Source: an uncultured Monoglobus sp. (GTDB lineage Bacteria; Bacillota; Clostridia; Monoglobales; Monoglobaceae). From it: a stretch of DNA of 42,281 nt. Under the pieces are notes generated by a model, which was not told the origin of the DNA, ran no database searches, and saw only the letters and a list, made by a program, of their open reading frames with translations. Positions 5,470 through 37,422 of this stretch are shown one piece after another. The DNA lies in contig CANRHV010000018.1 of assembly GCA_947630505.1 (NCBI GenBank), forward strand, positions 1-42,281, in the 5' to 3' direction. The position numbers and the translations under genes are program-made. The number at the start of each line of letters is the position of its first letter. The stretch's first letter is position 1.

Positions 5470-7188
5470 TTACTTTTTATTCTCGTCAAGTACGGCCAGA
5501 ACATCGCTTTCGGCGGCGCATTTCATGACTTTTTCGGCCACCTTGTCGGCCTCGGCCTTTGTCCACTTGCGTATCTCGGCCCTTGTGGCAAGGACCGCCG
5601 TTGGACTGACGCTGTACTCGCTGAGCCCGAAAGATATCAACAGCGGTATCAGGCGCGGATCGGCCGCGGCCTCGCCGCACATTCCGACCGGGATGCCCTT
5701 TTTGTTTCCGCATTCGATTATCCGCTTTATCGAGCGCAGCACCGCGGGCTGAAACGCCGAGTAGAGATACGCGACGTTGGCGTTGCCGCGGTCGGCGCAC
5801 ATGGTATAGCCCGTCAGGTCGTTGGTTCCGATGCTGAAGAAATCGGCCTCCTCGGCCAGCAGATCGGCTATCGCCGCGGCCGCCGGGGTCTCGACCATAA
5901 CGCCGACCTCGATATCCTTGTCGTAGGCTGTGCCCTCGCGGTCGAGCTCGCTCATCAGGTCTTTTATGACCGCCTTAACTCCGCGCACTTCCTCGACGCA
6001 GGTCACGAGCGGGATCATTATCTTGATGTTTCCGAAAGCCGACGCGCGCAGCAGAGCCCGCAGCTGATCGCGGTACAGCTCCTCGTTTTTGAGGCAGTAT
6101 CTCACCGCGCGGAAGCCCATGAACGGATTTTCCTCTTTTTCAAGGCCCAGATAAGGTATGTCCTTGTCGCCGCCCACGTCGAGAGTACGGATTATAACGG
6201 GCTTGTTTTTGAGCGTCATGGCCGCCTTTTTGTAGGCCTCAAACTGCTCGGCCTCGTCGGGCTTTTGCTTCGAGTCCATGTACAGAAACTCGGTTCTGAA
6301 CAGGCCGACGCCCTCGCCGTCCTTTTCGATGACCGCGGCGCAGTCGTCGGGCTTGCCTATGTTGCATACCAGCTCTACCCGATCTCCGTCGGCGGTCACA
6401 GTGGGCTCGCCTATCAGCTTTTCAAGCTCCTTTTTGCGTTTTGCGTAGTCCGCCTTTTGCTCGGCGTATTCGGCCTGCTGCTCGGCCGTCGGGTCCTCGA
6501 TGACCTCGCCGCGTATGCCGTCTACGATAAGCCGCACGCCGCTTTTTATCTTTGCGGTCACTCCCTCGACGCTAAGCACGGCGGGTATCTCCAGAGCTCT
6601 CGCCAGTATCGCCGAGTGGGAGGTCCTGCCTCCCATTTCGGTCACGATGCCCTCGATGTTGTCCTTGTTGATGCCCGCGGTCATCGACGGCGTGAGATCG
6701 CTGACAACTATCACGCTGCCCTTTGGGAGCGACGCGATATCGACGTCCTCGATTCCCTGCAGCGTCTTGATTATTCCGGTCTTGACGTCTCTCAGGTCAG
6801 CCGCGCGCTGCATGGTAAGCTCGTCGCCCGTGGCCTCGAACATGGCCGCGAACGTCTCAAACACCTGCTCGGCCGCCGCCTCGGAGGTGAGTCCCTGCGC
6901 GATGATACCGCGGACCTCGTCGGTCATGGCGGGGTCGCTGAGCATAAGCGAGTGGCCCATGAGTATCTCGGCCTCTTTTTCGCCCACGCTCTTTCGCATG
7001 TCCTCGGCCATCGCGTTGGTCTTTTCTATAAGCGCCTCGACCGCCGCGTCGAACCTCTTTGTCTCGTCCTCCGCGGTCAGCGCGGAGCTTTGCTCGTAGC
7101 TTATCTTCGGCTCGGTTATCAGCGCCGCGCGGCCTATGCCTATGCCGTCGGAGCCCGCGATACCCTTATAACTTTTTTCGCATTCCAT
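5470..7188 (-). CDS. ptsI: Phosphoenolpyruvate-protein phosphotransferase (PTS enzyme I)
   Basis: Takes phosphate from PEP and passes it to HPr. ATG 7188 (MECEKSYKGIAGSDGIGIGRA), preceded by GGAGTAGGA, gives 572 residues, the family length; longer upstream starts run into ptsH. Active histidine H191 lies in GGRTSHSAILARALEIP; the PEP-binding C-terminal barrel has RTLDVGGDKD, ENPFMGFRAVRYCL and the cysteine of GMCGEAA near 503. Oddity: the second EI signature reads GTNDLTGYTMCADRGN, where most enzymes have Q instead of G (N-D-L-x-Q-Y). It is the last gene of the fru operon, 5 bases after ptsH. Confidence 0.93.
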   Translation of the reverse strand: MECEKSYKGIAGSDGIGIGRAALITEPKISYEQSSALTAEDETKRFDAAVEALIEKTNAMAEDMRKSVGEKEAEILMGHSLMLSDPAMTDEVRGIIAQGLTSEAAAEQVFETFAAMFEATGDELTMQRAADLRDVKTGIIKTLQGIEDVDIASLPKGSVIVVSDLTPSMTAGINKDNIEGIVTEMGGRTSHSAILARALEIPAVLSVEGVTAKIKSGVRLIVDGIRGEVIEDPTAEQQAEYAEQKADYAKRKKELEKLIGEPTVTADGDRVELVCNIGKPDDCAAVIEKDGEGVGLFRTEFLYMDSKQKPDEAEQFEAYKKAAMTLKNKPVIIRTLDVGGDKDIPYLGLEKEENPFMGFRAVRYCLKNEELYRDQLRALLRASAFGNIKIMIPLVTCVEEVRGVKAVIKDLMSELDREGTAYDKDIEVGVMVETPAAAAIADLLAEEADFFSIGTNDLTGYTMCADRGNANVAYLYSAFQPAVLRSIKRIIECGNKKGIPVGMCGEAAADPRLIPLLISFGLSEYSVSPTAVLATRAEIRKWTKAEADKVAEKVMKCAAESDVLAVLDENKK

Positions 7189-10416: not shown

Positions 10417-11165
10417 GCTTCCGCCTCCCTTATAATTGTATGCTTTCTGAATTTATTATTTGCGGGCTCGTCGGTAATAATTATTCCCTCGCTCAGATCG
10501 CCGAAGGTCACCGAGCAGGTCAGATCAAATTTGCTGTGGTCGGCGAGAACATAGTTTCTGCGTCCCCGTTTCATGGCCTCGGCCTTGACGGCCGCCTCCT
10601 CCGCGTCGGGCGTCGTGTAGCCGCTCTCGACCGATATGCCGTTGGTTCCGATAAAAGTCTTGGTAAAATTGTATTTCCGAAGATTGGCGACGGTCTCGGT
10701 CCCCACCACGGCCTCGGTGGTGAGCTTTATCTGGCCGCCCATGATGTAGGCCTGAAAGCCCTTCTGTATCAGCTTTTTGGCATGGACGATCCCGTTTGTG
10801 ACAAATGTGGCTCTGAGGCCCTCGTTTAAATGGTCTATCATCGCCGAGGTGGTTGTTCCCGCGTCGATAAACACAAAATCGTCGTTGCCGATCAGCGCGG
10901 CCGCCGCCCTGCCTATCCTTTGTTTTTCCGCGGTGTTCATGGTCGATTTTGTCAGCACATCGTTCTCAAACACCGTATGCCGCCGCTTTATCGCCGTGGC
11001 TCCGCCATGGACCTTCCGAAGCCGCCCCATGCGGTCGAGAGCCGTCAAATCGCGGCGCACCGTGGATTCCGAAGTGTCGAGCATGTCGGCGAGGTCGCTG
11101 ACCGCCGCAGTGTTCCGCTCGGATAAATAATTGATTATCATATCGTGTCTTTCCTGAGTTAACAT
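10413..11165 (-). CDS. fruR: DeoR-family regulator of the fructose operon
   Basis: A 250-residue repressor-type protein: N-terminal winged helix-turn-helix (residues 1-57, with VSDLADMLDTSESTVRRDL), then a DeoR sensor domain with DAGTTTSAM for binding phosphosugars. In Bacillota such regulators control fruKA, and the position as first gene of fruR-fruK-fruA-ptsH-ptsI supports fructose 1-phosphate control. SD GGGAGG is 5 bases before ATG. Confidence 0.9.
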   Translation of the reverse strand: MLTQERHDMIINYLSERNTAAVSDLADMLDTSESTVRRDLTALDRMGRLRKVHGGATAIKRRHTVFENDVLTKSTMNTAEKQRIGRAAAALIGNDDFVFIDAGTTTSAMIDHLNEGLRATFVTNGIVHAKKLIQKGFQAYIMGGQIKLTTEAVVGTETVANLRKYNFTKTFIGTNGISVESGYTTPDAEEAAVKAEAMKRGRRNYVLADHSKFDLTCSVTFGDLSEGIIITDEPANNKFRKHTIIREAEA

Positions 11166-11231
11166 ATTGCCTCCCGAAAATTCATTTGCTTTACCGAAAA
11201 ATTTTGTTAAATATATCCTGTGTTTAAATCA

Positions 11232-11260
11232 ATAATATCATCATTTTCAGTCATTGTCAA
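11232..11260 (-). promoter_or_regulatory. Sigma-A promoter of the fru-pts operon
   Basis: On the - strand TTGACA (11260-11255), 17-bp spacer, TATTAT (11237-11232). It leaves a leader of about 60 nt before fruR. No further promoter was obvious inside the operon. Confidence 0.88.
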
Positions 11261-11356
11261 CCATTATTTTTCAAAAATTAGCGTTTTTGAGCAATAACAA
11301 TCAATTTTGTTTATTATATATAAATATTGTTGCTCGTTTTTGGCTATTTGTGCCAA

Positions 11357-11379
11357 TAAAAAAGCCGCCAAACAGCGGC
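11357..11379 (-). terminator. Weak terminator-like hairpin, - strand
   Basis: On the - strand GCCGC / GCGGC with a 6-nt loop, followed by TTTTTTATT. The transcript it would end is not obvious; it may stop read-through from the antitoxin RNA toward fruR. Confidence 0.35.
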
Positions 11380-11479
11380 CGTAAGATAATATCATAGAAT
11401 TACAAATCTGCCAAACAGGACAAAAATATAAATTCAGTCCGTCTTTATATAGTATGATTTTGTGTAACCGATTTTTAAC

Positions 11480-11508
11480 TTGAAAAAATTGTTGTATTGT
11501 GGTATTAT
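11480..11508 (+). promoter_or_regulatory. Promoter of type I toxin mRNA, copy 1
   Basis: TTGAAA (11480-11485), 17-bp spacer, TATTAT (11503-11508). The mRNA would have a leader of about 165 nt. The copy-2 promoter shares -10 TATTAT, the 17-bp spacing and the following ATATTTGGCAG. Confidence 0.8.
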
Positions 11509-11679
11509 ATATTTGGCAGCAAAACTGCAAGTGCGGAACATTTCGCGCGGAGAAACATTTAAGTATAAATAAAATATGCCTATCTAAAAGGCAGAGCAAA
11601 AACGTAAGGACGGTTGGCCGCTTCATTCCTTTCTAAACACTTAACTTCGTGTTTAAGACATAAAGAAAGGAGTGATGCC

Positions 11680-11766
11680 ATGATGAAAAATTATTTTTTC
11701 AGAATATTTGTTGCATTGCTTGTGATAATCGTATTGTTTGCGATTTTTGCACAGCCGGTGCAATAA
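11680..11766 (+). CDS. Probable type I toxin: 28-aa hydrophobic peptide, copy 1
   Basis: ATG 11680 to TAA 11766; begins MMKNYFFRIFVALL, continues as one membrane helix (I-I-V-L-F-A-I-F-A) and ends QPVQ. The SD AAAGGAGTGAT (11667-11677) is 7 bases upstream and very strong. Copy 2 at 24670-24756 has the same length and closely similar sequence, so the frame is conserved. In the leader, CATTCCTTTCT (11624-11634) is complementary to AGAAAGGAGTG (11664-11674), which would hide the SD, with an inner AAACAC/GTGTTT hairpin. An antisense RNA covers the 3' end. Short hydrophobic peptide, hidden SD and overlapping antisense RNA are hallmarks of type I toxins; I recognise no named family. Membrane toxicity is an inference. 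Confidence 0.72.
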   Translation: MMKNYFFRIFVALLVIIVLFAIFAQPVQ

Positions 11767-11863
11767 AAAATAACAACCGCCCAAGTTTAGTCGGCTGAGG
11801 CGGTTGCCATAAATACCGTTTGAAGCGGCCAAACCGTTTTTACGCTCTGCCGTTTCTCTTTCT
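11765..11863 (-). ncRNA. Probable antitoxin RNA, copy 1
   Basis: About 99 nt, from the promoter at 11870-11898 to the terminator CAACCGCC (11774-11781) / GGCGGTTG (11799-11806) plus T-rich tail, ending over the toxin stop codon. It is fully antisense to the toxin mRNA 3' region. Its 5' part is also a near-direct match to the toxin mRNA leader (11590-11625), so the toxin mRNA itself can pair its leader with its 3' tail. Confidence 0.7.
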
Positions 11864-11869
11864 ATAATC

Positions 11870-11898
11870 ATTATATATTATTATTTTTCTTTTGTCAA
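11870..11898 (-). promoter_or_regulatory. Promoter of antitoxin RNA, copy 1
   Basis: On the - strand TTGACA (11898-11893), 17-bp spacer, TATAAT (11875-11870): full consensus, stronger than the toxin promoter, as expected for an antitoxin RNA made in excess. Confidence 0.88.
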
Positions 11899-11967
11899 GT
11901 TTTTTATAACAAAAAGCGGAGCCGAGGCCCCGCCGCCGAATATAAACGACAATGTGTTTCATTCAAA

Positions 11968-12207
11968 TTATTCAAACAAATCATTTATATCGACATTCAA
12001 AAGTCTTGCGATAACAAATATCTCCCTATCGGTAGCGCGGCGGAACTGCCCCTCAAGCTTTGAATAGCTTGTGGGGTTCATGTCGATGCCCGCGGTTTGG
12101 ATACGCGCGATAAAGTCCTTTTGCTTTATCCCCCGTTCCTTGCGCATGCGCTCGATATTGCGGCCGACCATATTTTTGTTTCCGATTTCCAATTTTCTGG
12201 TTTTCAT
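11968..12207 (-). CDS. XRE-family helix-turn-helix regulator (79 aa)
   Basis: Small DNA-binding protein consisting essentially of one HTH_3 domain: IERMRKERGIKQKDFIARIQ, then a recognition helix region MNPTSYSKLEGQFRRATDREI and I-A-R-L-L-N-V-D-I-N-D-L-F-E. GGGAG lies 7 bases before ATG 12207. Its promoter overlaps a divergent strong promoter, which suggests autoregulation and control of the divergent transcript. No other domain; target unknown. Confidence 0.85.
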   Translation of the reverse strand: MKTRKLEIGNKNMVGRNIERMRKERGIKQKDFIARIQTAGIDMNPTSYSKLEGQFRRATDREIFVIARLLNVDINDLFE

Positions 12208-12242
12208 AATTTAACTCCCATTATTTATTACAATAAAATTTT

Positions 12243-12271
12243 ATTATAAAATATTCTTGACAAAATTCCAA
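12243..12271 (-). promoter_or_regulatory. Promoter of the XRE regulator
   Basis: On the - strand TTGGAA (12271-12266), 17-bp spacer, TATAAT (12248-12243). It overlaps the + strand promoter at 12257-12285, so the two cannot easily be occupied together. Confidence 0.65.
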
Positions 12272-12285
12272 AAAAGAATTATAAT
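12257..12285 (+). promoter_or_regulatory. Consensus promoter divergent from the XRE gene
   Basis: TTGACA (12257-12262), exactly 17 bases, TATAAT (12280-12285). An inverted repeat TTGAC-TTAG-GTCAA (12297-12310) lies just downstream of the predicted start and could be an operator. Confidence 0.88.
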
Positions 12286-12291
12286 ATATGA

Positions 12292-12366
12292 AAGACTTGA
12301 CTTAGGTCAATGGGTAATATGAAAAACTCAATAACAAAGCGGAGCGAAAAGCTCCGCTTTTTATTT
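12292..12366 (+). ncRNA. Candidate small RNA (about 75 nt) next to the XRE gene
   Basis: A full-consensus promoter and a strong terminator bracket about 75 nt with no convincing ORF: the only ATGs (12311, 12320) lack an SD and read through the terminator. It starts with the TTGAC/GTCAA hairpin. The terminator arm probably also insulates spoIIAA. Confidence 0.5.
12336..12366 (+). terminator. Intrinsic terminator
   Basis: AAAGCGGAGC (12336-12345) pairs with GCTCCGCTTT (12351-12360), 5-nt loop, then TTATTTT. Confidence 0.85.
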
Positions 12367-12374
12367 TGCCGAAA

Positions 12375-12386
12375 TTTGTCGACAAA
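12375..12386. promoter_or_regulatory. Spo0A-box-like palindrome upstream of spoIIAA
   Basis: TTTGTCGACAAA reads as TTTGTCGAC on both strands, one base from the Spo0A box TTTGTCRAA. It lies about 93 bases before the spoIIAA start. spoIIA operons are Spo0A-activated with sigma-H; I could not pick out a clear sigma-H promoter between here and 12479. Confidence 0.4.
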
Positions 12387-12478
12387 AAGTTTTTGGGAAA
12401 TAAAGGCGGAAATAAATTTATGTATAAAAAGACAGTGGGAAAACTAACCGAACCGACTAACGCAAAGGAGGAAAACAT

Positions 12479-12793
12479 ATGAACTGTGAAATTGAGCAGG
12501 TGGGCGGCGCGCTGGTGGTGAAGCTAAGCGGCGAGATAGACCAGCACTGCGCCGAGGAGCTGCGCAGCGACATAGACAGACAGCTTGACATAAAACATTC
12601 CGCGTCGCTGATCATCGACCTGGGCGGCGTGGATTTTATGGACAGCTCGGGTCTTGGCCTTATCATGGGCAGATACAGAAAAATGAAAGCGAGAGGCGGC
12701 AAAATACTTCTGGCGCGGCCGACGCCCGCCGTGGACAAGCTGCTGGAGCTGTCGGGCATCAACAAGCTCGTAGGCAGAGAGCGGACAAAATAA
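12479..12793 (+). CDS. spoIIAA: Anti-anti-sigma factor SpoIIAA
   Basis: A 104-residue STAS protein that, when unphosphorylated, frees SigF from SpoIIAB in the forespore. The phospho-acceptor loop [16 protein letters not shown] has Ser56/Ser57, matching the serine that SpoIIAB phosphorylates. SD AAAGGAGG lies 8 bases before ATG. First gene of spoIIAA-spoIIAB-sigF-spoVAC-spoVAD-spoVAE, 16 bases before spoIIAB. Confidence 0.95.
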
Positions 12794-12809
12794 AAAAGGA
12801 GAAAAAACT

Positions 12810-13259
12810 ATGCGAAACTATATGAAACTTGAAATACCGTCAAAGAGCCTCAACGAAGCCTTCGCGCGGGCGGCGGTGGGCGCTTTTGCCGCCCAGGCCG
12901 ACCCGACGGTCGAGGAGCTGGCGGACATAAAGACCTCGGTCTCCGAGGCGGTAACAAACTCGATAATCCACGGCTACAGAGACACGGTCGGCGTCATATA
13001 CATCGAGTGCGAGGCGCGAGTCGGAAAAACCTGCGTGATCGAGATAATCGTGCGCGACGAGGGCGTTGGGATACCCGACGTGGAGCGCGCCATGGAGCCG
13101 CTTTTCACCACCGCGCCCGACGAGGAGCGCAGCGGCATGGGCTTCACCGTGATGCAGAGCTTTATGGACACCCTTGATGTTATATCCGAAAAGGGCAAAG
13201 GCACCACCGTAAAAATGAGCAAAAAAATCAACGCAGGGATCAGCGACGATGGGTATTGA
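12810..13259 (+). CDS. spoIIAB: Anti-sigma-F factor / serine kinase SpoIIAB
   Basis: 149 residues; binds SigF and phosphorylates SpoIIAA. GHKL-type ATP fold: N-box [14 protein letters not shown]1 box [11 protein letters not shown]2 box [24 protein letters not shown] sits upstream. Its 3' end overlaps the sigF start by 11 bases, consistent with coupled translation of sigma and anti-sigma. Confidence 0.95.
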
Positions 13260-16573: not shown

Positions 16574-18232
16574 ATGGCTGCTTTGCTTCACAATATTCTG
16601 ATATGCACTGTCAGCGGAAGCATCATGTTCGGTCTGGGCACTCTGTTTAATTTAAGGTTCAGCAAGCGCAGCATGTCGCGATGGTATTACGGGATAATTA
16701 TTTTATCTCTCATCATGCTGCTTGTGCCGCTTGAGTTCGGCGGCTCGCTACCGAAGCTCATTAACGTCAGTTTGCCGGCGGAGACCGCGACGCCCGCTCC
16801 GATAAGCGGAGCCGCCGGAGGCGCGGCAAGATCGGGCCCTTCGCTCATTCAAATAATATTTACGGTCTGGACGATCGCGGCCTCTGCTCTGGCGGTTCGG
16901 AATATCGTGCTCTATATAAGGGCGAGCCGAACCATCGGGCGCATATCGCGGCCATGCGAGAATGCGGAGGCGCTGCGAATATGCGAAAAGCTGCGAAAAG
17001 AACTCGGGATACGCGGACGCGTTCGGGTCATGGTGAGCGCCGAGACGGCCTCTCCTCTGCTTTTCGGGATAATCAGACCCCGAATAATAATCCCCGACCG
17101 CGACTTTGACGCCGAGAGCTTAAGGCTGATATTCGCCCACGAGCTGACGCACCTCAGACACCGCGACCTTTTGGTAAAGCTGCTGGGAATAGCGGCGGGC
17201 TGCGTGCATTGGTTCAATCCGCTTATTTATCCGCTGCGAAGATCGCTGAACACGGTGTGCGAGCTGTGCTGCGACGAGTCGGTGCTCAAAAAACTCAGAC
17301 TTGCCGACAACAAGGACTACGGCAGGCTGATAATCTCGGTGGTCGAGGACGGCGGCGCGGGCTACGCGGCCTACTCCACCTCTATGGCGTCGGCCAAGAA
17401 CAGTATGAAAAAGCGGCTGTCGCGCATTGCGCGCTTTAAGGAGATAACGGGCGCGCTAAAGATGATAAGCGTTCTGACCGCCGCGGCTCTGGCGGTGTGC
17501 AGCATGACGGCGTTCGGCTTCACGCGGGCTGCGGAAGTCGTGCCCGAGGAGATCTCGTCGGTGTTCAGGCCAAGCGGCGGCGCGGTCGTCAGCAGATTTT
17601 CGGCGACCGCGCGCGAAACGCCCGCTCCGACTCCGACAGAAACGGCGGCGCCCGAACTCACCACGGACGAAACGGCGGACGAGACGCGGACCCCGAGCGA
17701 GCCCGAATACGCGGCAGACGACGAGCCTGTTTATGATTTGACAGACGAGAGCGCGGAGACTATATCCGAAGAAATTACAGAACCGCAATATGGCGAGACG
17801 GAGACAGGACCCGAGTATACCGAGCCGGTTCCGGTGCACGAGCCCGAAGTGCAGACCGTTGTTGTCACGCCCGCGGCCGTCACACCGCCTCCCGCGCCCA
17901 CCGAGGCTCCCAAAACTGCCGAGACCGTCAAAGTGCCGGGCGTGTCGTCTTACGTGATAAACCTTGAGTATGACGATTCGGGCAAAGCCGCGACGCCGAT
18001 ACTTGAGGCGGTAAGCACGACCAAGCTGAGCTTTAATATGACAAACATGATAAGCGGAGTTGAGATCTACGCGTGCGGAAAAAACGGCGAAAACGCGCGG
18101 AAGGTTTACGAAAGCGCGAACGGCTCCATAACGTCATTCACGCTGCCCGTGACCGAGGGCGAGTGCTGCTTCGCGGTGTTCACCGGCCACGACCGCGCCC
18201 CCGCCCAAACAAACACGTTGATCATCAATTGA
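16574..18232 (+). CDS. BlaR1/MecR1-like M56 metallopeptidase sensor with a non-penicillin-binding C-terminus
   Basis: 552 residues. Membrane helices near 8-30, 35-53, 93-112 and 300-320; zinc site HELTH (189-193) in FAHELTHLRHRD, followed by CELCCDESVLKKL with the third ligand Glu/Asp. After the last helix comes an outside stalk of about 130 residues rich in E, T, P (roughly 335-460), then a beta-rich C-terminal domain of about 90 residues. A penicillin-binding domain with S-x-x-K is absent, so the signal is unlikely to be a beta-lactam bound as in BlaR1. Inference: signal at the wall, protease activated, repressor cut. No beta-lactamase gene is nearby; the three SLH genes follow. Confidence 0.85.
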   Translation: MAALLHNILICTVSGSIMFGLGTLFNLRFSKRSMSRWYYGIIILSLIMLLVPLEFGGSLPKLINVSLPAETATPAPISGAAGGAARSGPSLIQIIFTVWTIAASALAVRNIVLYIRASRTIGRISRPCENAEALRICEKLRKELGIRGRVRVMVSAETASPLLFGIIRPRIIIPDRDFDAESLRLIFAHELTHLRHRDLLVKLLGIAAGCVHWFNPLIYPLRRSLNTVCELCCDESVLKKLRLADNKDYGRLIISVVEDGGAGYAAYSTSMASAKNSMKKRLSRIARFKEITGALKMISVLTAAALAVCSMTAFGFTRAAEVVPEEISSVFRPSGGAVVSRFSATARETPAPTPTETAAPELTTDETADETRTPSEPEYAADDEPVYDLTDESAETISEEITEPQYGETETGPEYTEPVPVHEPEVQTVVVTPAAVTPPPAPTEAPKTAETVKVPGVSSYVINLEYDDSGKAATPILEAVSTTKLSFNMTNMISGVEIYACGKNGENARKVYESANGSITSFTLPVTEGECCFAVFTGHDRAPAQTNTLIIN

Positions 18233-18282: not shown

Positions 18283-18651
18283 CTGCCTCGCCCCTTGGGG
18301 AGAGGTGGATTTCCGCCAAAGGCGGAAAGACGGAGAGGGGTTAACATAGAGACTAGTAATTAGTAACTAGTAACTAGGAACCCCTCTCAGTCACCTACGG
18401 TGACAGCTCTCCCCAAGGGGCGAGCCAACCTTAAAGCGCGGGAAATACGCGAACGATTTTTGCCAAACTATCTCCGCGTATTCGCTATTCTCTAATTACT
18501 AATCACTACGTTGCCACCTCATCCGAGCGCCTTCGCACCTTCCCCTCAAGGGGAAGGCAAAAAAAGGCTTCCCCTTGAGGGAAAGCTGTCAAGCAGAGCT
18601 TGACTGATGAGGTGTTCTAATCACTATTCGCTAATATCTAATCACTACATT
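18283..18651. repeat. Mosaic repeat block between the sensor gene and SLH gene 1
   Basis: In order: palindrome type A (18288-18340, GCCCCTTGGGGAGAG), five 7-bp units TAGAGAC TAGTAAT TAGTAAC TAGTAAC TAGGAAC (18347-18381), type A inverted (about 18380-18427, inner stem GTCACC/GGTGAC), four to five units CTATTCT to CTACGTT (18485-18512), palindrome type B (18515-18614, CACCTCATC ... GATGAGGTG), and five units CTAATCA to CTACATT (18617-18651). The last unit touches the AGGAGG of the SLH gene. No gene is seen in this 430-base gap. Confidence 0.85.
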
Positions 18652-18666
18652 AGGAGGATGTTTTAT

Positions 18667-20367
18667 ATGAAAAATTACACTATATTTAGATTATTATTTT
18701 TATTGTTAATCACATTCAGCATTTCACTTTGCTGTTTGGCGGTATCGGCGGCGGAGACGCCGGTCACGGGAGACATGCTCAAGCAAATGGCGGAAAGCCG
18801 AAAACTGAGCGCAAACCCCGACGCTGATCGGATACTGAACACCGATCACATCGAGCAAAATCCGGACCTGAGCCTCAATGCGTCAAACGCCGAGCCCAAA
18901 AAAATCGGCGATTATATTGATCCCGACAAGGCCTTTTGTATGTATTTAAGGCCCGCGCAGGGTCTCACGCGGTATTTCAGAGAAGGCGCGGGGAGCGCCG
19001 AATCGTTCGCCGAGGCGTTTGAGCTGTTCAAAAATTCCGAATACTGCGATACGGAATACTGGCAGCCGGTCGAACCGTTTTATGACGCGAACGGGGAGCT
19101 TATGAACGCGCGTTGCGTTCAGGCGCAGTACGATCTGGGCAGGCTCAATAATGTTACGCTCGGGACCGCGGCCGACTTTTGGTTCGAGGACAAGTACTAC
19201 GACTTGGCGGCTGAGGCCGTAAACAAGAGCGGCATAAGCCGAATCGACGCGGTATACACCTTCGGAAGCGAGATCGCTCCGGACACCGACAAGGGCAGCT
19301 TTGTTATGCCCTGCGAGACCGTGAAGGACGGCTGCGCGGAGTATGCCGGATACGGCGAAAGGTCGCTTGAGGGCGGAGCGCTGTATACCGCTTTGGAGTA
19401 CGACAGCTTTTACAGTCTTATGTCGCAATATGCGGCGGTCGCCTCGGAGCTTTTCGAAAATCGCGTGAGAGAGGCGATAGGCGGCACAATGATATCGCAG
19501 GCGGAAATGGAAACGACGGCGCAAAGGCCGCCCGAGGACAGCGACAGCTTTTCGGAATATATCGGCACCGAGCCGCGCTACGCCGACATAACAAAGGCGC
19601 AGGCGGCGGTGACAAATCAGCTAAGCGACCTCGGCGTTATTACCGGAGAGGGCGGCATGTTCTATCCCGACAAAACCGTGACGCGGGCGGAGATCGCGGC
19701 TATGCTGTGCAGGCTGTTTGATATAGGGCTGGCCGAGGCAAGCGGATTTTCGGATGTTCCGAGCGGTCATTGGGCGGCGGGATATATAGGCGCTCTGGCC
19801 CAAAAGGGCGTGATAAGCGGACTCGGGAACGGCGTTTTCGGGCCCGACGAGGCTGTGACCTGCGAGCAGGCGGCAAAAATGATCGAAAACCTGCTTGGCT
19901 ACACCGACCATGCCGCGCTTACATACGGCGGCTATCCGCAGGGCAATGTCGTGATCGCCGCAATGCTGGGTCTGACCGACGATCTGGGCAATTTTGATTC
20001 GGGAGATCCGCTTTCCCGTATCGGCGCCGCGTGCATGTTGAGCCGCGCGCTTGACACCCACATACTCACCGAAAGCTATTATTTCGCAAGCCCCTCTTTA
20101 GGTTTCGGCTCGGCGGCCATGGCGGACGGGACCCTCGCCCAATACAGAGACGGCGCGGAGCTCAAGGGCGTTTACCACACCGGCGAAGCGGAGCGGGAGG
20201 CCTACGACGAGGCTGCGGCCGAGGAGCTTGATGAAAAATGCGGCGATATATTCCGCGAGTACCGCGATATCACGGGCAACGGCCCCGCGTCGGGCAAGCC
20301 GGGATTCGGCATCAGAAACATTTCCGCCCCGAGCAAGTCCAATCCCATCCCCAGAATAACAACGTAG
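18667..20367 (+). CDS. Secreted SLH-domain surface protein, paralogue 1
   Basis: 566 residues from ATG 18667 (AGGAGG 9 bases upstream). Signal peptide 1-29 ending V-S-A-A. An N-terminal domain of about 270 residues, shared with the next two genes and unknown to me, begins with a T-G-D-M-L-K-Q-M-A-E-S-R helix. SLH repeats follow: YADITKAQAAVTNQLSDLGV with TVTRAEIAAMLCRLF; FSDVPSGHWAAGYIGALAQK with TCEQAAKMIENLLGY; a degenerate third with SRIGAACMLSRALD. After the SLH block comes a charged helix and the tail NPIPRITT. SLH domains bind pyruvylated wall polymers, so it should sit on the cell surface. The stop TAG is the first unit of a repeat tract. Confidence 0.88.
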   Translation: MKNYTIFRLLFLLLITFSISLCCLAVSAAETPVTGDMLKQMAESRKLSANPDADRILNTDHIEQNPDLSLNASNAEPKKIGDYIDPDKAFCMYLRPAQGLTRYFREGAGSAESFAEAFELFKNSEYCDTEYWQPVEPFYDANGELMNARCVQAQYDLGRLNNVTLGTAADFWFEDKYYDLAAEAVNKSGISRIDAVYTFGSEIAPDTDKGSFVMPCETVKDGCAEYAGYGERSLEGGALYTALEYDSFYSLMSQYAAVASELFENRVREAIGGTMISQAEMETTAQRPPEDSDSFSEYIGTEPRYADITKAQAAVTNQLSDLGVITGEGGMFYPDKTVTRAEIAAMLCRLFDIGLAEASGFSDVPSGHWAAGYIGALAQKGVISGLGNGVFGPDEAVTCEQAAKMIENLLGYTDHAALTYGGYPQGNVVIAAMLGLTDDLGNFDSGDPLSRIGAACMLSRALDTHILTESYYFASPSLGFGSAAMADGTLAQYRDGAELKGVYHTGEAEREAYDEAAAEELDEKCGDIFREYRDITGNGPASGKPGFGIRNISAPSKSNPIPRITT

Positions 20368-20687
20368 GGACTAGGAGATAGAGACTAGGACCTAGGTTCC
20401 CACCTCCGTCTGCGGCAAGCCGCAGCCATCTCCTCCCCGGCGTCCCCTACGACCATAGTGCGCAAAATGCCGTAGGGGCGAACGACCCCGGCCGCCCGCC
20501 TGCCTCGCCCCTTGGGGAGAGGTGGATTTCCGCCAACGGCGGAAAGACGGAGAGGGGTTTACCATGCGGCTCGGAATACAAACCCCTCTCAGTCTGCGGA
20601 CAAGCCGCAGCCAGCTCTCCCCAAGGGGCGAGCCTAATGTTTGCCGCCCGTCCTATTCGCTATTCGCTAATCGCTAATCACTATGTT
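20365..20687. repeat. Mosaic repeat block between SLH genes 1 and 2
   Basis: Five units TAGGGAC TAGGAGA TAGAGAC TAGGACC TAGGTTC (20365-20399) start with the stop codon of gene 1. Then a partial palindrome with CTGCGGCAAGCCGCAG, a separate hairpin CCCCTACG ... CGTAGGGG (about 20444-20479), type A in both orientations (about 20511-20560 and 20582-20634), and five units CTATTCG to CTATGTT (20653-20687) that run into the GGAGG of gene 2. No gene is seen. Confidence 0.85.
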
Positions 20688-20702
20688 GGAGGAATGATAT
20701 AT

Positions 20703-22463
20703 ATGAAAAAACTAAAAAAATTATTATCGGCAATTTTATCCGCAGCGGTGGCATTGACCGCGGTTTCGGGGCTTACTGCCTCGGCCGAGGGAAACATCAC
20801 CGGCGCGCAGCTCAGGGAGCTGGCGGAGAGCCGCATGCTCATCGACAGGCCCGACGCGAAGCAGGTACTTGACTGCGAGTATAACGAAATGCAACACTCA
20901 TTCACGCTTGAGGACTTAGACAAGATGGACCCGATTACGCGCGAATATGTCTATGACATCACCGAGGAGCCTCTCGCGCCCTTGAGGTTGGGCGATGTGC
21001 CGGGCATCGAGACGGCGTTCGGCTGCGGCCCGTCGGCGGAGGTCATTGCCGAGGGGCTCGCGTCCGGCAAGAGCTTTGACGAGATCATGAGCGAACATGA
21101 TAATCTGTACTATATCGTCACCGACGAAAAATGTTACGAGCTGTTTGATCCGCCCGAAGGCCCGTATACCGGCGCGCTCACCAAAGTGATAGACGTCAAT
21201 TATTACGCACCCGACAAAAACGGAGAACTCCGCGAAGCCGATAGTTCCGAAAGCAGCCTTCGGGTAAACTGCCACGACGCCGGCCTTTTTGACTTCAGGA
21301 ACGCGTATGACAGAATAGCCGACGCCTTGAACGACGCGGGCTGCAAGTCGATCGACGGGGCTTGTATCGAGCCCTCTATGGGAATAAGCGTTTCTGCCGA
21401 CATCGGCTGTCTGTATGTGCCCGTTCGGGATGTGAGCGGAAAAGAGGCCGAGTATTTAGGCGAAAACATCGGAAGCCTCAACGCTTTTGAGGCGTATAAA
21501 ATAGACGACTATGTAAAATTCATGGAGCTGCGCGACGAGGCGGCCGCGAAAGCGTCCGCGCTGCTCGGCGAGAAGCTGCGCGCAAAAATGCCCGGCTCGC
21601 TTGACACCGAAAGTTATAAACTAAATGCGACGTTCGGCGAGGCGACCGACTGCTTCTCGCAATATATCGGCACCGAGCCAAAGTATTCCGACATAACCGA
21701 CGGACAGGCGGCGGTCACCAATCAGCTGACCGATATGGGGATCGTCAACGGCGCGGACGGAATGTTTTATCCCGACAGCAACGTGACACGAGCGGAGAAC
21801 GCGGCGATGATATGCAGACTGCTGAAAATCGAGCCGAGCATAACAGACAGATTCGCCGACGTTCCCGATGACTATTGGGCGGCGGGATATATCGGCGCGC
21901 TTTCCGAACAAGGTCTGATCGACGGCACGAGTAACTCGCAGTTCTCACCCGAGGAAAGCGTGACATACGAGCAGGCGCTGAAAATCATTATAACCATGCT
22001 GGGCTACGCGGGAAACCAAACCGACTATTATGGCGGGTTCCCGACCGGATTTATAAAGCTCGGCCTCGATCTGGGCCTGATAGACGACTGCGGCAGCTTT
22101 GACTCGGGAACGCCCGTATCCAGGATACGCTTCGCCTGCATGATAAGCCGCGCGCTGGACACAAGGCTTTCAACAACGACTGTCGGGATCGGCGGCATGG
22201 GCGCCCAGATCTACGAGATAGCGGACGCCACGCTGTACGGATATTTAAACGGCGCCGAGCTGTGCGGCTCTCTGCTGCGCGGCAAAGTCGAAAAAGAAGC
22301 GTTTAAAGAGCAAAAATCAGCCGAGTACGCCGAAAAATGCGGCGATATCATCGACGAGTATAAAGAGATCACACAGTCAAACACCACGCTTGTCAAAGAG
22401 ATAAACGGGATCTACGTCGCGCCCCTGATTAAGAGCAACCCGATACCGAGGATAACAACGTAG
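20703..22463 (+). CDS. Secreted SLH-domain surface protein, paralogue 2
   Basis: 586 residues from ATG 20703 (GGAGG 10 bases upstream; the frame is open further upstream but that part is repeat DNA). Signal peptide MKKLKKLLSAILSAAVALTA to S-A-E (about 1-26). The unknown N-terminal domain starts ITGAQLRELAESRML. SLH block: YSDITDGQAAVTNQLTDMGI / NVTRAENAAMICRLL, FADVPDDYWAAGYIGALSEQ / TYEQALKIIITMLGY, and a weak third with SRIRFACMISRALD. The C-terminal helix and tail SNPIPRITT match paralogue 1. The stop TAG again lies inside a repeat tract. Confidence 0.88.
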   Translation: MKKLKKLLSAILSAAVALTAVSGLTASAEGNITGAQLRELAESRMLIDRPDAKQVLDCEYNEMQHSFTLEDLDKMDPITREYVYDITEEPLAPLRLGDVPGIETAFGCGPSAEVIAEGLASGKSFDEIMSEHDNLYYIVTDEKCYELFDPPEGPYTGALTKVIDVNYYAPDKNGELREADSSESSLRVNCHDAGLFDFRNAYDRIADALNDAGCKSIDGACIEPSMGISVSADIGCLYVPVRDVSGKEAEYLGENIGSLNAFEAYKIDDYVKFMELRDEAAAKASALLGEKLRAKMPGSLDTESYKLNATFGEATDCFSQYIGTEPKYSDITDGQAAVTNQLTDMGIVNGADGMFYPDSNVTRAENAAMICRLLKIEPSITDRFADVPDDYWAAGYIGALSEQGLIDGTSNSQFSPEESVTYEQALKIIITMLGYAGNQTDYYGGFPTGFIKLGLDLGLIDDCGSFDSGTPVSRIRFACMISRALDTRLSTTTVGIGGMGAQIYEIADATLYGYLNGAELCGSLLRGKVEKEAFKEQKSAEYAEKCGDIIDEYKEITQSNTTLVKEINGIYVAPLIKSNPIPRITT

Positions 22464-22791
22464 GGACTAGGGAATAGAGACTAGGAACTAGGTTCCCCTC
22501 TCAGTCGCCTTCGGCGACAGCATTAAGGAAGCTCTTGGTCAAAATTGCAAGCAATTTTGAAAGATAGCTTTGAACCCGCAAGCAAGCTTGCTGATTATCC
22601 CCAAGGGGCGAGCCTAGTCCCTAGATCCTATTTCCTAGTCCCTACGTTGCCACCTCATCCGAGCGCCTTCGGCGCCCACCTTCCCCTCAAGGGGAAGGCA
22701 ATAGAGGCTTCCCCTTAAGGGGAAGCTGTCAAGCGGAGCTTGACTGATGAGGTGTTCTAATCACTATTCGCTAATTTCTAATCACTATGTT
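22461..22791. repeat. Mosaic repeat block between SLH genes 2 and 3
   Basis: Five units TAGGGAC TAGGGAA TAGAGAC TAGGAAC TAGGTTC (22461-22495) beginning at the stop of gene 2; a type A element (about 22491-22613) whose stem-loop is expanded by nested hairpins (AAAATTGC/GCAATTTT; GCAAGC/GCTTGC); five units CTAGTCC to CTACGTT (22614-22648); type B (22651-22754); five units CTAATCA to CTATGTT (22757-22791) touching the GGAGG of gene 3. No gene is seen. Confidence 0.85.
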
Positions 22792-22806
22792 GGAGGAATT
22801 ATATAT

Positions 22807-24501
22807 ATGAAAAAACTAAAAAAACTATTATCGTTATTATTATCGGTTGCGATTACGTTTACCGTGGTTTCGGGGGTCACGGTCTCGGCGGCGGAGCGGG
22901 TGACCGCGAAGGATATAAAGGAGCTCGCCGAGGTCACTCTGCGCGAGGAGCCTGATTATAAAGCCATACTCGGCACGGCCTATATCCCCGAGGACGGGGA
23001 CATCACAAACACCGCGATTTACGGCGATGTTATCGATCCGAATTCCGCGTTTTTGGTTTACTCAAGCGCGGAGGCCTACACGCGGCTGATAGGAAACGGA
23101 GCCGACACGCTTGCGGAGGCGATCGAGCTCTGTGAAAACGGCGCGAACAGCGGCATCCGCTATGACAGCTCGGGCGACAGGTGCTACTATCAGCCTATGC
23201 CCGGCTACCCGAACTGCGCCGACTATCCGCAGCTCAGCGGCGAGGCGGCCTACAGGCTGCGAATAAGAGACGGAGAGCCCGTCGAGCTGGCGGCGCAGCC
23301 GCTCTACAACTTCGCGGCCGAATATCAGAAAGTCGCCGACGTCATGAACGAATACGGCTTGGAAAAGCCTGATGCGGTATATCTGTTTTCGGGGAGCGCG
23401 TCATTCGGAGGCCCGCTCAAATCGGCGTCATTCGGCATCTCGGTCAGCGGCGAGGAATACATTATCCCCGTCGGCCAAGACATTGAGGACAAGCAGGGCG
23501 ACTCGGGCCTTGAAGCCTATCGGCTCTATGACATGATTGACTATAACGCGTATTTTAACACCCACCGCGCGAGCGCCGAGAAAATACTCGAAAACGCTGA
23601 AAGCGAGCGCCTTGAGCGGCTGTCCGGGGTCCGCGCGCGCGAGGAGATCGAGGTGACGGCAAAAACAGTCGGCACAAACGACACCGACAGCTTTTCGAAA
23701 TACATCGGCACCGCGCCGAAATATTCCGACATAACCGCGGGTCAGGCGGCGGTGACGAACCAGCTGACCGAACTGGGCGTCATAAGCGGCTTTGACGGAA
23801 AGTTTTATCCGAACGACAATGTGACAAGAGCCGAGACCGCGGCCATGCTGTGCAGGCTGTTTGATATCAAAAGCGAGTCCGAGGGAACAGCCGCGTTTTC
23901 GGACGTGCCGCAGGATCACTGGGCGGCGGGCTGTATCGGCGCCCTCGCGCAAAAGGGCGTGATAAGCGGGCTCGGAAACGGCGCGTTCGGGCCGGAGCAA
24001 AGCGTGACCTATGAGCAGGTGTTCAAGATGATAGAGCAGCTTCTGGGCTACACCGGACAAATGCTCGTAAGCTGCGGCGGCACCTATCCCGAGGCCAACG
24101 TGCTGGCGGCCGTGAAACTGGATCTGACGAACGACCTTAAAAGCTATGACTCGGCCGACCCGATAACAAGGATCGAGCTGGCCTGCGTGCTGAGCCGCGC
24201 GCTCGACGCTCACACCGCGACCGTTGAAGTGTATATCGAAAACCTGACCGAGGGAGTTTATTACTACACCGACGCGACCCTGAGCGACATTAAATGCGGC
24301 GCGGAACCCGCCGGAAAGCTGTGCGAAAGCGACGACGAGTTTTGGGAGTACACCCGGGCGCTTAAGTCGGAATACGCCGAAAAGACGCAGGATATCATCG
24401 ACGCGGCGGTGTCGCGGACCGGCGGCATGGGCATTGATTTGGGCGGCGGCATAACGATACGCGCCAACCCCAAAGCCGATATCCCCAGGATCACAAGCTG
24501 A
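22807..24501 (+). CDS. Secreted SLH-domain surface protein, paralogue 3
   Basis: 564 residues from ATG 22807 (GGAGG upstream). Signal peptide MKKLKKLLSLLLSVAITFTV to V-S-A-A. Same plan: unknown N-terminal domain (about 27-295), SLH repeats YSDITAGQAAVTNQLTELGV / NVTRAETAAMLCRLF, FSDVPQDHWAAGCIGALAQK / TYEQVFKMIEQLLGY, third with TRIELACVLSRALD, charged helix, tail ADIPRITS. Unlike the first two, its stop is TGA and no 7-bp tract follows, so it marks the end of the cassette row. The three genes may be separately or jointly transcribed; no consensus promoter was found in the spacers. Confidence 0.88.
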   Translation: MKKLKKLLSLLLSVAITFTVVSGVTVSAAERVTAKDIKELAEVTLREEPDYKAILGTAYIPEDGDITNTAIYGDVIDPNSAFLVYSSAEAYTRLIGNGADTLAEAIELCENGANSGIRYDSSGDRCYYQPMPGYPNCADYPQLSGEAAYRLRIRDGEPVELAAQPLYNFAAEYQKVADVMNEYGLEKPDAVYLFSGSASFGGPLKSASFGISVSGEEYIIPVGQDIEDKQGDSGLEAYRLYDMIDYNAYFNTHRASAEKILENAESERLERLSGVRAREEIEVTAKTVGTNDTDSFSKYIGTAPKYSDITAGQAAVTNQLTELGVISGFDGKFYPNDNVTRAETAAMLCRLFDIKSESEGTAAFSDVPQDHWAAGCIGALAQKGVISGLGNGAFGPEQSVTYEQVFKMIEQLLGYTGQMLVSCGGTYPEANVLAAVKLDLTNDLKSYDSADPITRIELACVLSRALDAHTATVEVYIENLTEGVYYYTDATLSDIKCGAEPAGKLCESDDEFWEYTRALKSEYAEKTQDIIDAAVSRTGGMGIDLGGGITIRANPKADIPRITS

Positions 24502-24541
24502 AAGATCCGCTTATTAGATAAACATTGATTTAATAAAAGTC

Positions 24542-24570
24542 TTGACAAAAATATAAAAGTAATATATAAT
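24542..24570 (+). promoter_or_regulatory. Promoter of antitoxin RNA, copy 2
   Basis: TTGACA (24542-24547), 17-bp spacer, TATAAT (24565-24570), full consensus. Sequence from the -10 to about 45 bases downstream matches the copy-1 antitoxin start. Confidence 0.88.
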
Positions 24571-24576
24571 AATCAT

Positions 24577-24671
24577 AGAAAGAGAAACGGCAGAGCGTAA
24601 AAACGGTCAGCCGCTTCGGTTAGATTTATAACAACCGCACCTGTCGGCTAAACTGGGGGCGGTTGTTTTTT
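24577..24671 (+). ncRNA. Probable antitoxin RNA, copy 2
   Basis: About 95 nt ending in the terminator AACAACCGC (24630-24638) / GCGGTTGTT (24659-24667) and T-run, just over the toxin stop codon. It is antisense to the 3' part of the toxin mRNA. Its GGCAGAGC-GTAAAAACGG segment repeats, in the opposite orientation, the toxin mRNA leader. Confidence 0.7.
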
Positions 24672-24756
24672 ATTGCACCACTGTTGCAAAAATTGCAAAT
24701 AACACAATTATTGCGAGCAATGCAACGAATACCTTAAAAAATAAATTTCTCATCAT
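24670..24756 (-). CDS. Probable type I toxin: 28-aa hydrophobic peptide, copy 2
   Basis: On the - strand ATG 24756 to TAA 24670: begins MMRNLFFKVFVALLA, then I-I-V-L-F-A-I-F-A and ends VVQ. Same length as copy 1 with mostly conservative changes. AAGGAG is 8 bases upstream; ATG 24762 is too close to it. The leader again holds an SD-hiding arm: CACTCCTTCT (24811-24802) against AGAAAGGAGTG (24773-24763). The locus is inverted relative to copy 1 and lies between SLH gene 3 and oadA. Confidence 0.72.
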   Translation of the reverse strand: MMRNLFFKVFVALLAIIVLFAIFATVVQ

Positions 24757-24928
24757 CGACATCACTCCTTTCTTTTGTCTTTAACACGGTGATATGTGTT
24801 TAGAAGGAGTGAAGCGACCAACCGTCCTTACGTTTCTATCTCTGCCCTTTACGATCACGCGTTTTATTCGCGCAAAGGTGTTTCTCCGCGCGGAATACTC
24901 CGCACTTGCAGTTTTTGCTGCCAAATAT

Positions 24929-24957
24929 ATAATACCATATTTTTACAAAATACTCAA
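24929..24957 (-). promoter_or_regulatory. Promoter of type I toxin mRNA, copy 2
   Basis: On the - strand TTGAGT (24957-24952), 17-bp spacer, TATTAT (24934-24929), followed by ATATTTGGCAG as in copy 1. It predicts a leader of about 165 nt. Confidence 0.75.
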
Positions 24958-24990
24958 GTAACATTTGCGTTACAAAAAAATCGTCAACAC

Positions 24991-25023
24991 AAAAACGGAC
25001 AGAAAAACTTCCTGTCCGTTTTT
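24991..25023. terminator. Intrinsic terminator after oadA
   Basis: AAAAACGGACAG (24991-25002) pairs perfectly with CTGTCCGTTTTT (25012-25023), loop 9. On the - strand it ends the decarboxylase operon 20 bases after the last stop. Confidence 0.88.
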
Positions 25024-27797: not shown

Positions 27798-28187
27798 TTA
27801 GCCGATCGAGATCAGCGGATCGCCGGTGTTGACGGCAGCACCCTGAGAGGTACATACCGCGGCGATCTTGCCCGCCTTGGGCGCCACGATCTCGTTTTCC
27901 ATCTTCATTGCCTCTAAGATGCAGACCACGTCGCCCTCGTTTACGGTGTCGCCCGTGTTTACCTTTACCGCGACGATAGTGCCGGGCATGGGCGCCTCGA
28001 CCGTGGTCGCGCCCGCGACGGGAGCCGCGGCTGCCTGAGCGGCGGGGGCGGGCGTCGGAGCGGGCGCGGCGGGCTTGGGAGCCGGAGCCGCGGATCTGGG
28101 AGCGGGAGTCTGAGCCGCCGCCTCGGCGACCTCCTCCACCTCTACTTCGTATGTTGTTCCGTTAACGGTCACATTAAATTTTCTCAT
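27798..28187 (-). CDS. Biotin carrier protein of the decarboxylase complex
   Basis: 129 residues: short N-terminal strand domain, an Ala/Pro-rich flexible linker (about 25-60), and a biotinyl domain with the modified lysine K95 in EAMKMENEI. It shuttles CO2 between the carboxyltransferases and the membrane beta subunit (gamma/MmdC-type). 28 bases after oadG. Confidence 0.94.
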   Translation of the reverse strand: MRKFNVTVNGTTYEVEVEEVAEAAAQTPAPRSAAPAPKPAAPAPTPAPAAQAAAAPVAGATTVEAPMPGTIVAVKVNTGDTVNEGDVVCILEAMKMENEIVAPKAGKIAAVCTSQGAAVNTGDPLISIG

Positions 28188-28215
28188 AATATTTTCCTCC
28201 TAACATAGTTATTAG

Positions 28216-36821: not shown

Positions 36822-37304
36822 CCGCCCCTTGAGGGGAAGCTGTCGGCGAAGCCGACTGATGAGGTGGCAACGTAGTGATTAGTAATTAGCGAATAGTGTC
36901 TACGCGGAGATAGCTTGGCAAAAAATTGTTCGCATGTTCCCGCGTCTCAAGATTGGCTCGCCCCTTGGGGAGAGCTGGCAACGTAGCGACTAGGAAATAG
37001 GGACTAGAAACTAGGAATATTTCATGGTTATATTAGGCTCGCCCCTTGGGGAGAGCTGTCGCCGAAGGCGACTGAGAGGGGTTAACGTAGGAACTAGGAA
37101 ATAGGATCTAGCGACTAGAAATATCTTTCGATGATATTCAATAGTTTCCGTCCTAGTCCCTAGTTACTAATCACTAGTACCTATGTTGACCCCTCTCCGC
37201 CCGCAAACGGGCACCTCTCCCCAAGGGGCGAGGCAGATATAGGCTTCCCCTTGAGGGGAAGCTGTCGGCGAAGCCGACTGATGAGGTGGCCTAGTCCCTA
37301 CGTT
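36822..37304. repeat. Large mosaic repeat block between murA and the giant surface protein
   Basis: Partial type B with stem GTCGGC-gaa-GCCGAC (to about 36868); units TAGTGAT to TAGTGTC (36873-36900); a partial type A core GGCTCGCCCCTTGGGGAGAG (about 36956-36976); five units TAGCGAC to TAGGAAT (36984-37018); type A with stem GTCGCC-gaa-GGCGAC (about 37035-37082); five units TAGGAAC to TAGAAAT (37088-37122); five units CTAGTCC to CTATGTT (37153-37187); type A inverted (about 37188-37232); partial type B (about 37234-37290); two units CTAGTCC CTACGTT (37291-37304). No gene is seen between 36807 and 37422. Confidence 0.85.
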
Positions 37305-37379: not shown

Positions 37380-37422
37380 ATAATATTAGAAATTATAAGT
37401 TTTTAACAATGGAGGTAATGTT

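Follow-up and report, generated by a model that had tools for sequence, protein, structure and literature searches.

The window analysed here is a stretch of 42,281 nt, contig CANRHV010000018.1 (C18 in our labelling), from the 2.70-Mb draft genome of an uncultured Monoglobus sp., a gut bacterium; the Monoglobus genomes compared are draft metagenome-assembled genomes, labelled G000, G001 and so on. It carries three genes whose products all contain surface-layer homology (SLH) domains (PF00395), downstream of gene X, which has orthologues in seven relatives and anchors the SLH cluster there. Upstream of each SLH gene lies a 35-bp tract of five CTANNNN heptads, the last of which contacts the (A)GGAGG of the Shine-Dalgarno (SD) sequence, and it is with these tracts, the repeat units that they bound and their contacts with gene signals that this work is concerned. 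An earlier note on this DNA had claimed that the last 7-bp unit of the tract leads directly into SD and start codon at all three SLH genes, and that the stop codon of genes 1 and 2, read after the codons ACA-ACG, is the first TAG unit of the following tract. Reading the coordinates directly, we found both statements to be correct, with tracts ending at 18651, 20687 and 22791, each SD following immediately, and the first two genes ending in ACA ACG TAG (Table 1). We would like to note that the three junctions are not mutually independent, since these paralogues inherited the junction by descent.

Table 1. Genes, heptad tracts and repeat units in the window, with positions on its forward strand.
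Feature	Position	Strand	Remarks
Gene X (BlaR1 peptidase M56)	16574..18232	+	ORF, PF05569; stop TGA at 18230-18232 without tract
Heptad tract, edge AACATAG	18343..18377	-	Within GGGGTT/AACCCC hairpin module; left end of unit 18343-18512
Type I tract, edge CTACGTT	18485..18512	+	Right end of unit 18343-18512
Hairpin module	18513..18616	.	CCACCTCATC...GATGAGGTG
Type I tract, edge CTACATT	18617..18651	+	Touches SD of SLH gene 1
SD AGGAGG, SLH gene 1	18652..18657	+	Start ATG at 18667
SLH gene 1 (g1 group), 566 aa	18667..20367	+	PF00395; stop TAG (20365-20367) is first TAG unit of following tract
Type II tract, edge AACGTAG	20361..20395	-	Edge includes codon ACG and stop TAG of SLH gene 1
Nested hairpin modules	20396..20652	.	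Occupy g1-g2 gap
Type I tract, edge CTATGTT	20653..20687	+	Touches GGAGG of SLH gene 2
SD GGAGG, SLH gene 2	20688..20692	+	Start ATG at 20703
SLH gene 2 (g2 group), 586 aa	20703..22463	+	PF00395; stop TAG (22461-22463) is first TAG unit of tract 22457-22491
192-bp unit	22457..22648	.	Between two outward-facing type II tracts (22457-22491, 22614-22648)
Hairpin module	22649..22756	.	CCACCTCATC...GATGAGGTG
Type I tract, edge CTATGTT	22757..22791	+	Touches GGAGG of SLH gene 3
SD GGAGG, SLH gene 3	22792..22796	+	Start ATG at 22807
SLH gene 3 (g3 group), 564 aa	22807..24501	+	PF00395; ends ...ACA AGC TGA, tract-free stop
Two-unit remnant CTAATAACTATGTT	28202..28215	-	Touches AGGAGG of minus-strand gene 27798-28187
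104-bp paired-tract unit	37084..37187	.	Centre of hairpin module; same family as SLH-gene units

The tracts form the termini of larger units. They are typically 28-35 bp long and consist of four or five position-specific heptads (CTANNNN) closed by the edge CTAYGTT, or AACRTAG on the other strand. A type I tract reads CTATTCG CTAATCA CTAATCA CTACGTT and a type II tract reads CTAGTCC CTAGTTC CTATTTC CTAGTCC CTACGTT, of which the opposite end has a variant form. Every heptad position has a consensus of its own, which makes the tracts the terminal repeats of a defined element rather than slipped copies of one unit; Tandem Repeats Finder reported no array at the tracts of the window, and the near-identical tandem copies of one heptad that characterize short tandemly repeated repetitive sequences of the TAACTGA type are not what the tracts contain. 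Twenty-four outward-facing tract pairs bound units of 77-216 bp, that is, short non-coding units with terminal inverted repeats of the kind that defines miniature inverted-repeat transposable elements (MITEs); in the unit at 22457-22648, for example, the terminal 46 nt (the arms) are 83% complementary. Some units are central in palindromic modules (GAGAGGGGTT/AACCCCTCTC), and others lie beside the second module family listed in Table 1. Each heptad carries a TAG on the strand in which the upstream gene is read and, as 7 is not divisible by 3, all three frames are closed in every tract (154/154, versus 26/154 when shuffled). Rfam matched only two tRNAs across the window and gave nothing at the SLH junctions even at an E-value of 1, and no exact match to a type I tract was found in viral contigs.

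A search with the pattern CTANNNNCTANNNNCTAYRTT (three CTA heptads plus the edge CTAYRTT) returned 176 matches in the 2.70-Mb genome versus 0 for the reversed control. The pattern is abundant across most of the genus Monoglobus, though some members have fewer copies; G008, a single 2.8-Mb contig, and nine further genera of this order have one match or none. Placement was assessed in 1.6 Mb from two Monoglobus genomes, 805 kb of the window's genome (about 30% of it) and 821 kb of G004, which together hold 154 tracts; the stretches from the window's genome were picked for holding tracts, regardless of where these lie relative to genes. Genes were called with a simple dicodon caller, crude enough that the counts may move by a few, and it missed the three SD contacts of the window, probably because it picked upstream in-frame starts.

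None of the 154 tracts lies within a called gene. Ten of the 67 start-facing edges stand 13-16 nt from the start codon, i.e., in contact with the SD, versus 1.3 expected from random intergenic points (P ~1e-6), and 23 of the 87 stop-facing edges overlap or supply the stop codon. In nine of these 23, a stop TAA overlapping the edge (..TAACGTAG) sits at one exact offset, versus 0.2 expected per nucleotide (P 3e-12); the other 14 use the first TAG (five), the second (one), the third (seven) or a TAA one base off (one). When only the window's own genome is counted and the SLH cluster is excluded, six of 37 start-facing edges are still SD contacts (P 9e-5) and eight of 59 stop-facing edges show the exact offset (P 7e-12). 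The tract at each of the ten nearest SDs is of type I (10/10), and beyond 25 nt there are 32 tracts of type I and 23 of type II. Across all tracts, the base after the edge is G in 71, A in 47, C in 31 and T in five. Neither the number of tracts nor their placement is due to chance. The earlier note had proposed looking for other genes flanked by tracts at start and stop, with a lack of preference for these positions counting against it; this search reveals a clear positional preference, and the claim that repeats meet SD and stop with base precision holds genome-wide.

The same note held that the repeats supply the stop codons, which is true of some genes and not of others. At locus A, eight species have TAC TAACGTAG followed by the tract, and the tract-free relatives G008, G007 and G001 end at the identical codon with TGA or TAA, so that the stop is native and the repeat merely abuts it. 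At locus D, TAACGTAG and a tract are found in five species (type I in one, type II in four), and the tract-free G002, G010 and G006 stop at the same codon with TGC TGA CGCG (in G002 and G010, TGCTGACGCGG). Tract-free SLH paralogues also end at the same residue as tract-bearing ones. Other genes do gain a short tail from the tract: at locus L042, where the junction of G002 is tract-free (TGACCGATCTCAGGAGG), the tract lengthens the protein in G000 and G004 (NVETRE* and NVGIRE*), and its opposite edge abuts AGGAGG. At this locus in G009 (L168 compared with L166 and L169), the whole element and the SD are gone and the genes overlap, possibly as a result of deletion between short ATAAAAA repeats.

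What changes between species is the interior of the repeats. At locus F, assigned as panB-panC by reading the sequence, the CTAYGTT-AGGAGG contact is retained with small changes in eight species and degenerate in G005, and the sequences upstream of it are all different. G007 has no element here, and its panB stop overlaps the panC SD (AAATAAGGGGGATCAGCATTATG; AAATAAGGGGG); overlap of stop and SD is general in compact junctions (PMC2784483). Over three loci with 5-8 species each, the first 24 nt of the edge are 81-92% identical, whereas the interior 40-240 nt inward is only 38-45% identical, with random sequence giving 39% under the same aligner. The edges are thus anchored and the interiors replaced. 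Outside the SLH array, the other loci examined have likewise kept their flanking genes in place, and only the repeat interiors differ.

In eleven cases a second edge has been inserted ahead of an older one, ten times at exactly 16 nt and once at 15 nt, with two heptads retained and with inserts of either type. G004 carries an extra unit inserted at the two-unit remnant of the window's 28.2-kb region (28202-28215), with a candidate 5-nt duplication, AACTA (TAGTT on the other strand); at the other paired units no target-site duplication is apparent by eye. In G011, two SLH junctions share, at 99.2% identity, a 246-bp block that begins within a tract, and this points to copying from one junction to another. 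The genes enclosed by wider tract pairs in the sample are few and ordinary, with no transposase among them when the proteins are judged by reading, and transport of genes between tract pairs was rejected.

A tree of 24 SLH proteins resolves four orthologue groups (g1-g4), and a comparison across species, where the earlier note had suggested strains, shows that the content and order of the SLH genes vary. With s standing for a 124-aa secreted-looking protein, the order is X-g1-g2-g3 in G000, X-g3 in G004 (everything between gene X and g3 is absent), X-s.g4-g2-g3 in G011, X-g1-g3-s.g2-g4 in G010 and X-g1-g3-s.g4-g2 in G002, with which the G006 fragments are compatible; at contig ends, G009 has X-g1-s.g4 and G003 has X-s.g4. 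Only one rearrangement can be resolved, the g2/g4 swap between G010 and G002. Identity tracks the gene from the signal peptide on and through its body to NPVPR, and stop, tract and SD track the position instead: whichever gene is present, ACAACATAGGGACTAGG is fixed at the 3' end of position 3, ..GATTA.-AAATTCCCG at that of position 4, and TAGGAGG..GGATAATATG at the 5' end of position 3. The breakpoints fall within the coding ends, one in the conserved signal peptide and the other at the C-terminus with NPVPR, and consequently tract, stop and SD belong to the position rather than to the gene. Judging from the sequences, these genes were exchanged between fixed sockets and not carried along with the tracts.

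The s gene is always joined to an SLH gene by TAGGAGG. Nearly all other SLH junctions contain an element, but this one never does (L106, 6687-8819; L107, 8127-10275; L108, reverse-complement coordinates 10859-12936); its SLH partner differs between G010 and G002. In G009 (L104, reverse-complement 5800-5850), the g1 C-terminus is fused to GTTGGAAGGA of the next gene, and g1 ends in VGRIIYEN*, overlapping the start of s. A deletion seems to have taken the whole element and the g1 stop. This g1-s junction had at first looked like an empty site, but a deletion in which the stop and the PRITT end were lost is the better reading.

The explanation that we consider probable, though well short of secure, is that the tracts are the termini of mosaic intergenic elements resembling MITEs and BOX elements rather than sites of gene recombination, with edges anchored by stop and SD and interiors swapped. 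Units would settle where gene junctions are compact, with a stop codon to one side and the SD of the following gene to the other, the outermost heptad flush with both signals; insertion at or just before the end of a gene would still yield a clean stop, with a TAG every 7 nt closing every frame, and the edge on the opposite side would leave GGAGG intact. The edges would stay fixed because the adjoining stop and SD cannot be lost, and the interiors would be replaced by insertions that favour a point 16 nt from the edge, as well as by copying between junctions. SLH gene bodies would be exchanged too, less extensively than the interiors and mainly by homologous recombination in the conserved coding segments for the signal peptide and the C-terminus. 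We infer that the units once transposed, that selection keeps their edges and that interiors turn over by this route. Such elements would be a natural case of parasitic-looking repeats living cost-free in gene-dense junctions, stopping any frame with a TAG per seven bases while sparing the ribosome-binding site. With edges frozen and interiors fully replaced in species about 93% identical, interior turnover is also directly measurable.

Several observations weigh against this interpretation. Most junctions are mosaic, leaving few clean pairs of empty and filled sites. Edge identity is no higher than the identity of the flanking genes, and neutral descent could therefore also keep the edges. 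No consistent target-site duplication is seen, the event in G004 being the only one with a candidate repeat, and transposases of the IS630 DDE (PF13358) and Y1/RAYT (PF01797) families, the only two searched for, are absent from the genome. Finally, the exact -2 offset at the stops is sharper than a simple tolerance of intergenic insertion predicts, which hints at a target preference. A more specific version, to which we give a rather low probability, has the elements recognise the stop/SD border or a motif tied to it, insert without target duplication and swap their interior around a fixed 7-bp edge, or socket. If this were true, closely related species would differ in the plugged-in DNA while their gene signals stayed intact.

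It is similarly doubtful that selection acts on the tract as a translation or RNA signal, whether a 5' untranslated or a stop element, as has been proposed for the TAACTGA heptads next to start codons in Beggiatoaceae (PMC4679880). The exact SD contact, the restriction to type I at the ten nearest SDs and the panC edge, kept in 8-9 species (one form degenerate) while all else changes, would suit such a signal. However, most tracts adjoin neither an SD nor a stop, their edges are no better conserved than neighbouring genes, there is no Rfam match, and the tract does not raise predicted SD accessibility, which is 0.29 with the tract, 0.35 with it shuffled and 0.51 with it deleted (these rows include SLH homologues and are not independent). 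The lower value reflects weak predicted pairing of the last two heptads with the SD, and the idea of the tract as an insulator that keeps the SD unpaired was rejected, the prediction being the opposite. A regulatory role would be compatible with the exclusive presence of type I tracts at the ten closest SDs.

Integron attC sites have outer borders of the form YAAC...GTTR, with a stop codon in the left border and the next SD after the right one. The Monoglobus borders have this form too, with a stop overlapping YAAC at the left and an SD straight after GTT at the right, which invites an integron-like model: recombination would take place at the tract, and genes, those for SLH proteins in particular, would be moved as units cut at CTAYGTT/AACRTAG. 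The variable SLH content and order, with a tract at almost every junction, and the loss in G004 of everything between gene X and g3 would agree with it. We nevertheless regard it as improbable. GTTRRRY is not enriched (RRRY follows GTT in 4 of 82 non-module edges versus 5.1 expected by chance), no IntI integrase (TIGR02249) in the genome scores over the model cut-off, the only matches being as strong as those given by generic tyrosine recombinases, flanking genes are unmoved at the loci examined outside the SLH array, and the sole resolvable swap breaks within coding ends. The earlier note's suggestion of genes moving as cassettes between tracts thus survives as regards the gain, loss and reordering of SLH genes but needs correction as regards the mechanism: in the one resolvable case, surface-protein genes were exchanged via conserved ends of their own, and what the repeats mark is the position and not the gene. 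That the SLH junctions are alike solely through duplication of paralogues with their flanks, with no wider rule, accords with the likeness of g1-g4 junctions in all species but is refuted by the non-SLH loci of the own-genome sample, with their eight stops at one offset and six SD contacts.

Searches of the literature turned up BOX, MITE, REP and TAACTGA precedents and no description of these Monoglobus repeats, which behave as BOX/MITE mosaics do but are not filed here in any one family. BOX elements of Streptococcus pneumoniae are modular, folded, clustered, nested and intergenic, and encode the stop of 36 coding sequences with no clear truncation (PMC3049150). The Monoglobus repeats resemble them, in a comparison by architecture and stop-codon behaviour only rather than by sequence, in being modular, folded, clustered, nested and intergenic and in providing a stop codon, and differ in having heptad tracts as termini, the fixed edge of which lies against SDs as well. 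MITEs are below 250 bp, have terminal inverted repeats and no open reading frame (ORF), and are intergenic, high in copy number and inserted into each other (PMC10969869), all of which has its counterpart in the Monoglobus units. In contrast to MITEs, these units have heptad-built termini with TAG in every frame, show no general target-site duplication, and have no parent transposase among the two families searched. The TAACTGA heptads of Beggiatoaceae and cyanobacteria, at about 170 sets per genome with the largest class ending 1 nt before the start codon (PMC4679880), share the 7-nt intergenic periodicity; they are identical direct repeats, mostly with no canonical SD, whereas the Monoglobus heptads are position-specific, occur at both unit ends and stand beside a canonical SD.

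Like the GTAG-tagged repetitive extragenic palindromic (REP) sequences associated with RAYT transposases (PMC3733652), the Monoglobus repeats have many copies, palindromic modules and a GTAG at the outer end of the edge AACGTAG. In these repeats, however, the GTAG leads into heptads instead of a palindrome and the genome has no Y1 transposase, and as such a RAYT-type REP was ruled out. Insertion of IS630 type at TA or CTAG with duplication of TA would fit the stops (CTAACGTAG) and the SDs (TTAGGAGG), but was rejected because G is commoner than A after the edge (71 vs 47), because the genome has no IS630 gene and because the s-SLH junctions, with their free TAGGAGG, are empty in every species where they were seen.

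Elsewhere in the window, two intergenic blocks at 11433-11907 and 24533-25004 are inverted copies of each other, 72-88% alike. In the first, a short hydrophobic ORF (MMKNYFFRIFVALLVIIVLFAIFAQPVQ) faces promoter-like sequence of the opposite strand, and a stem (GGCGGTTG/CAACCGCC) separates the two. By sequence, the blocks resemble two copies of a type I toxin-antitoxin pair; neither has an accepted Rfam match. Directly downstream of the tract cluster at 36.87-37.3 kb, an open frame of at least 1627 codons (37399-42279) encodes a large repeat protein and continues past the end of the window. Within this frame lie three repeats of about 1.28 kb and, near 41.3 kb, a 15-bp array (CCCGCGACGGATGCG).

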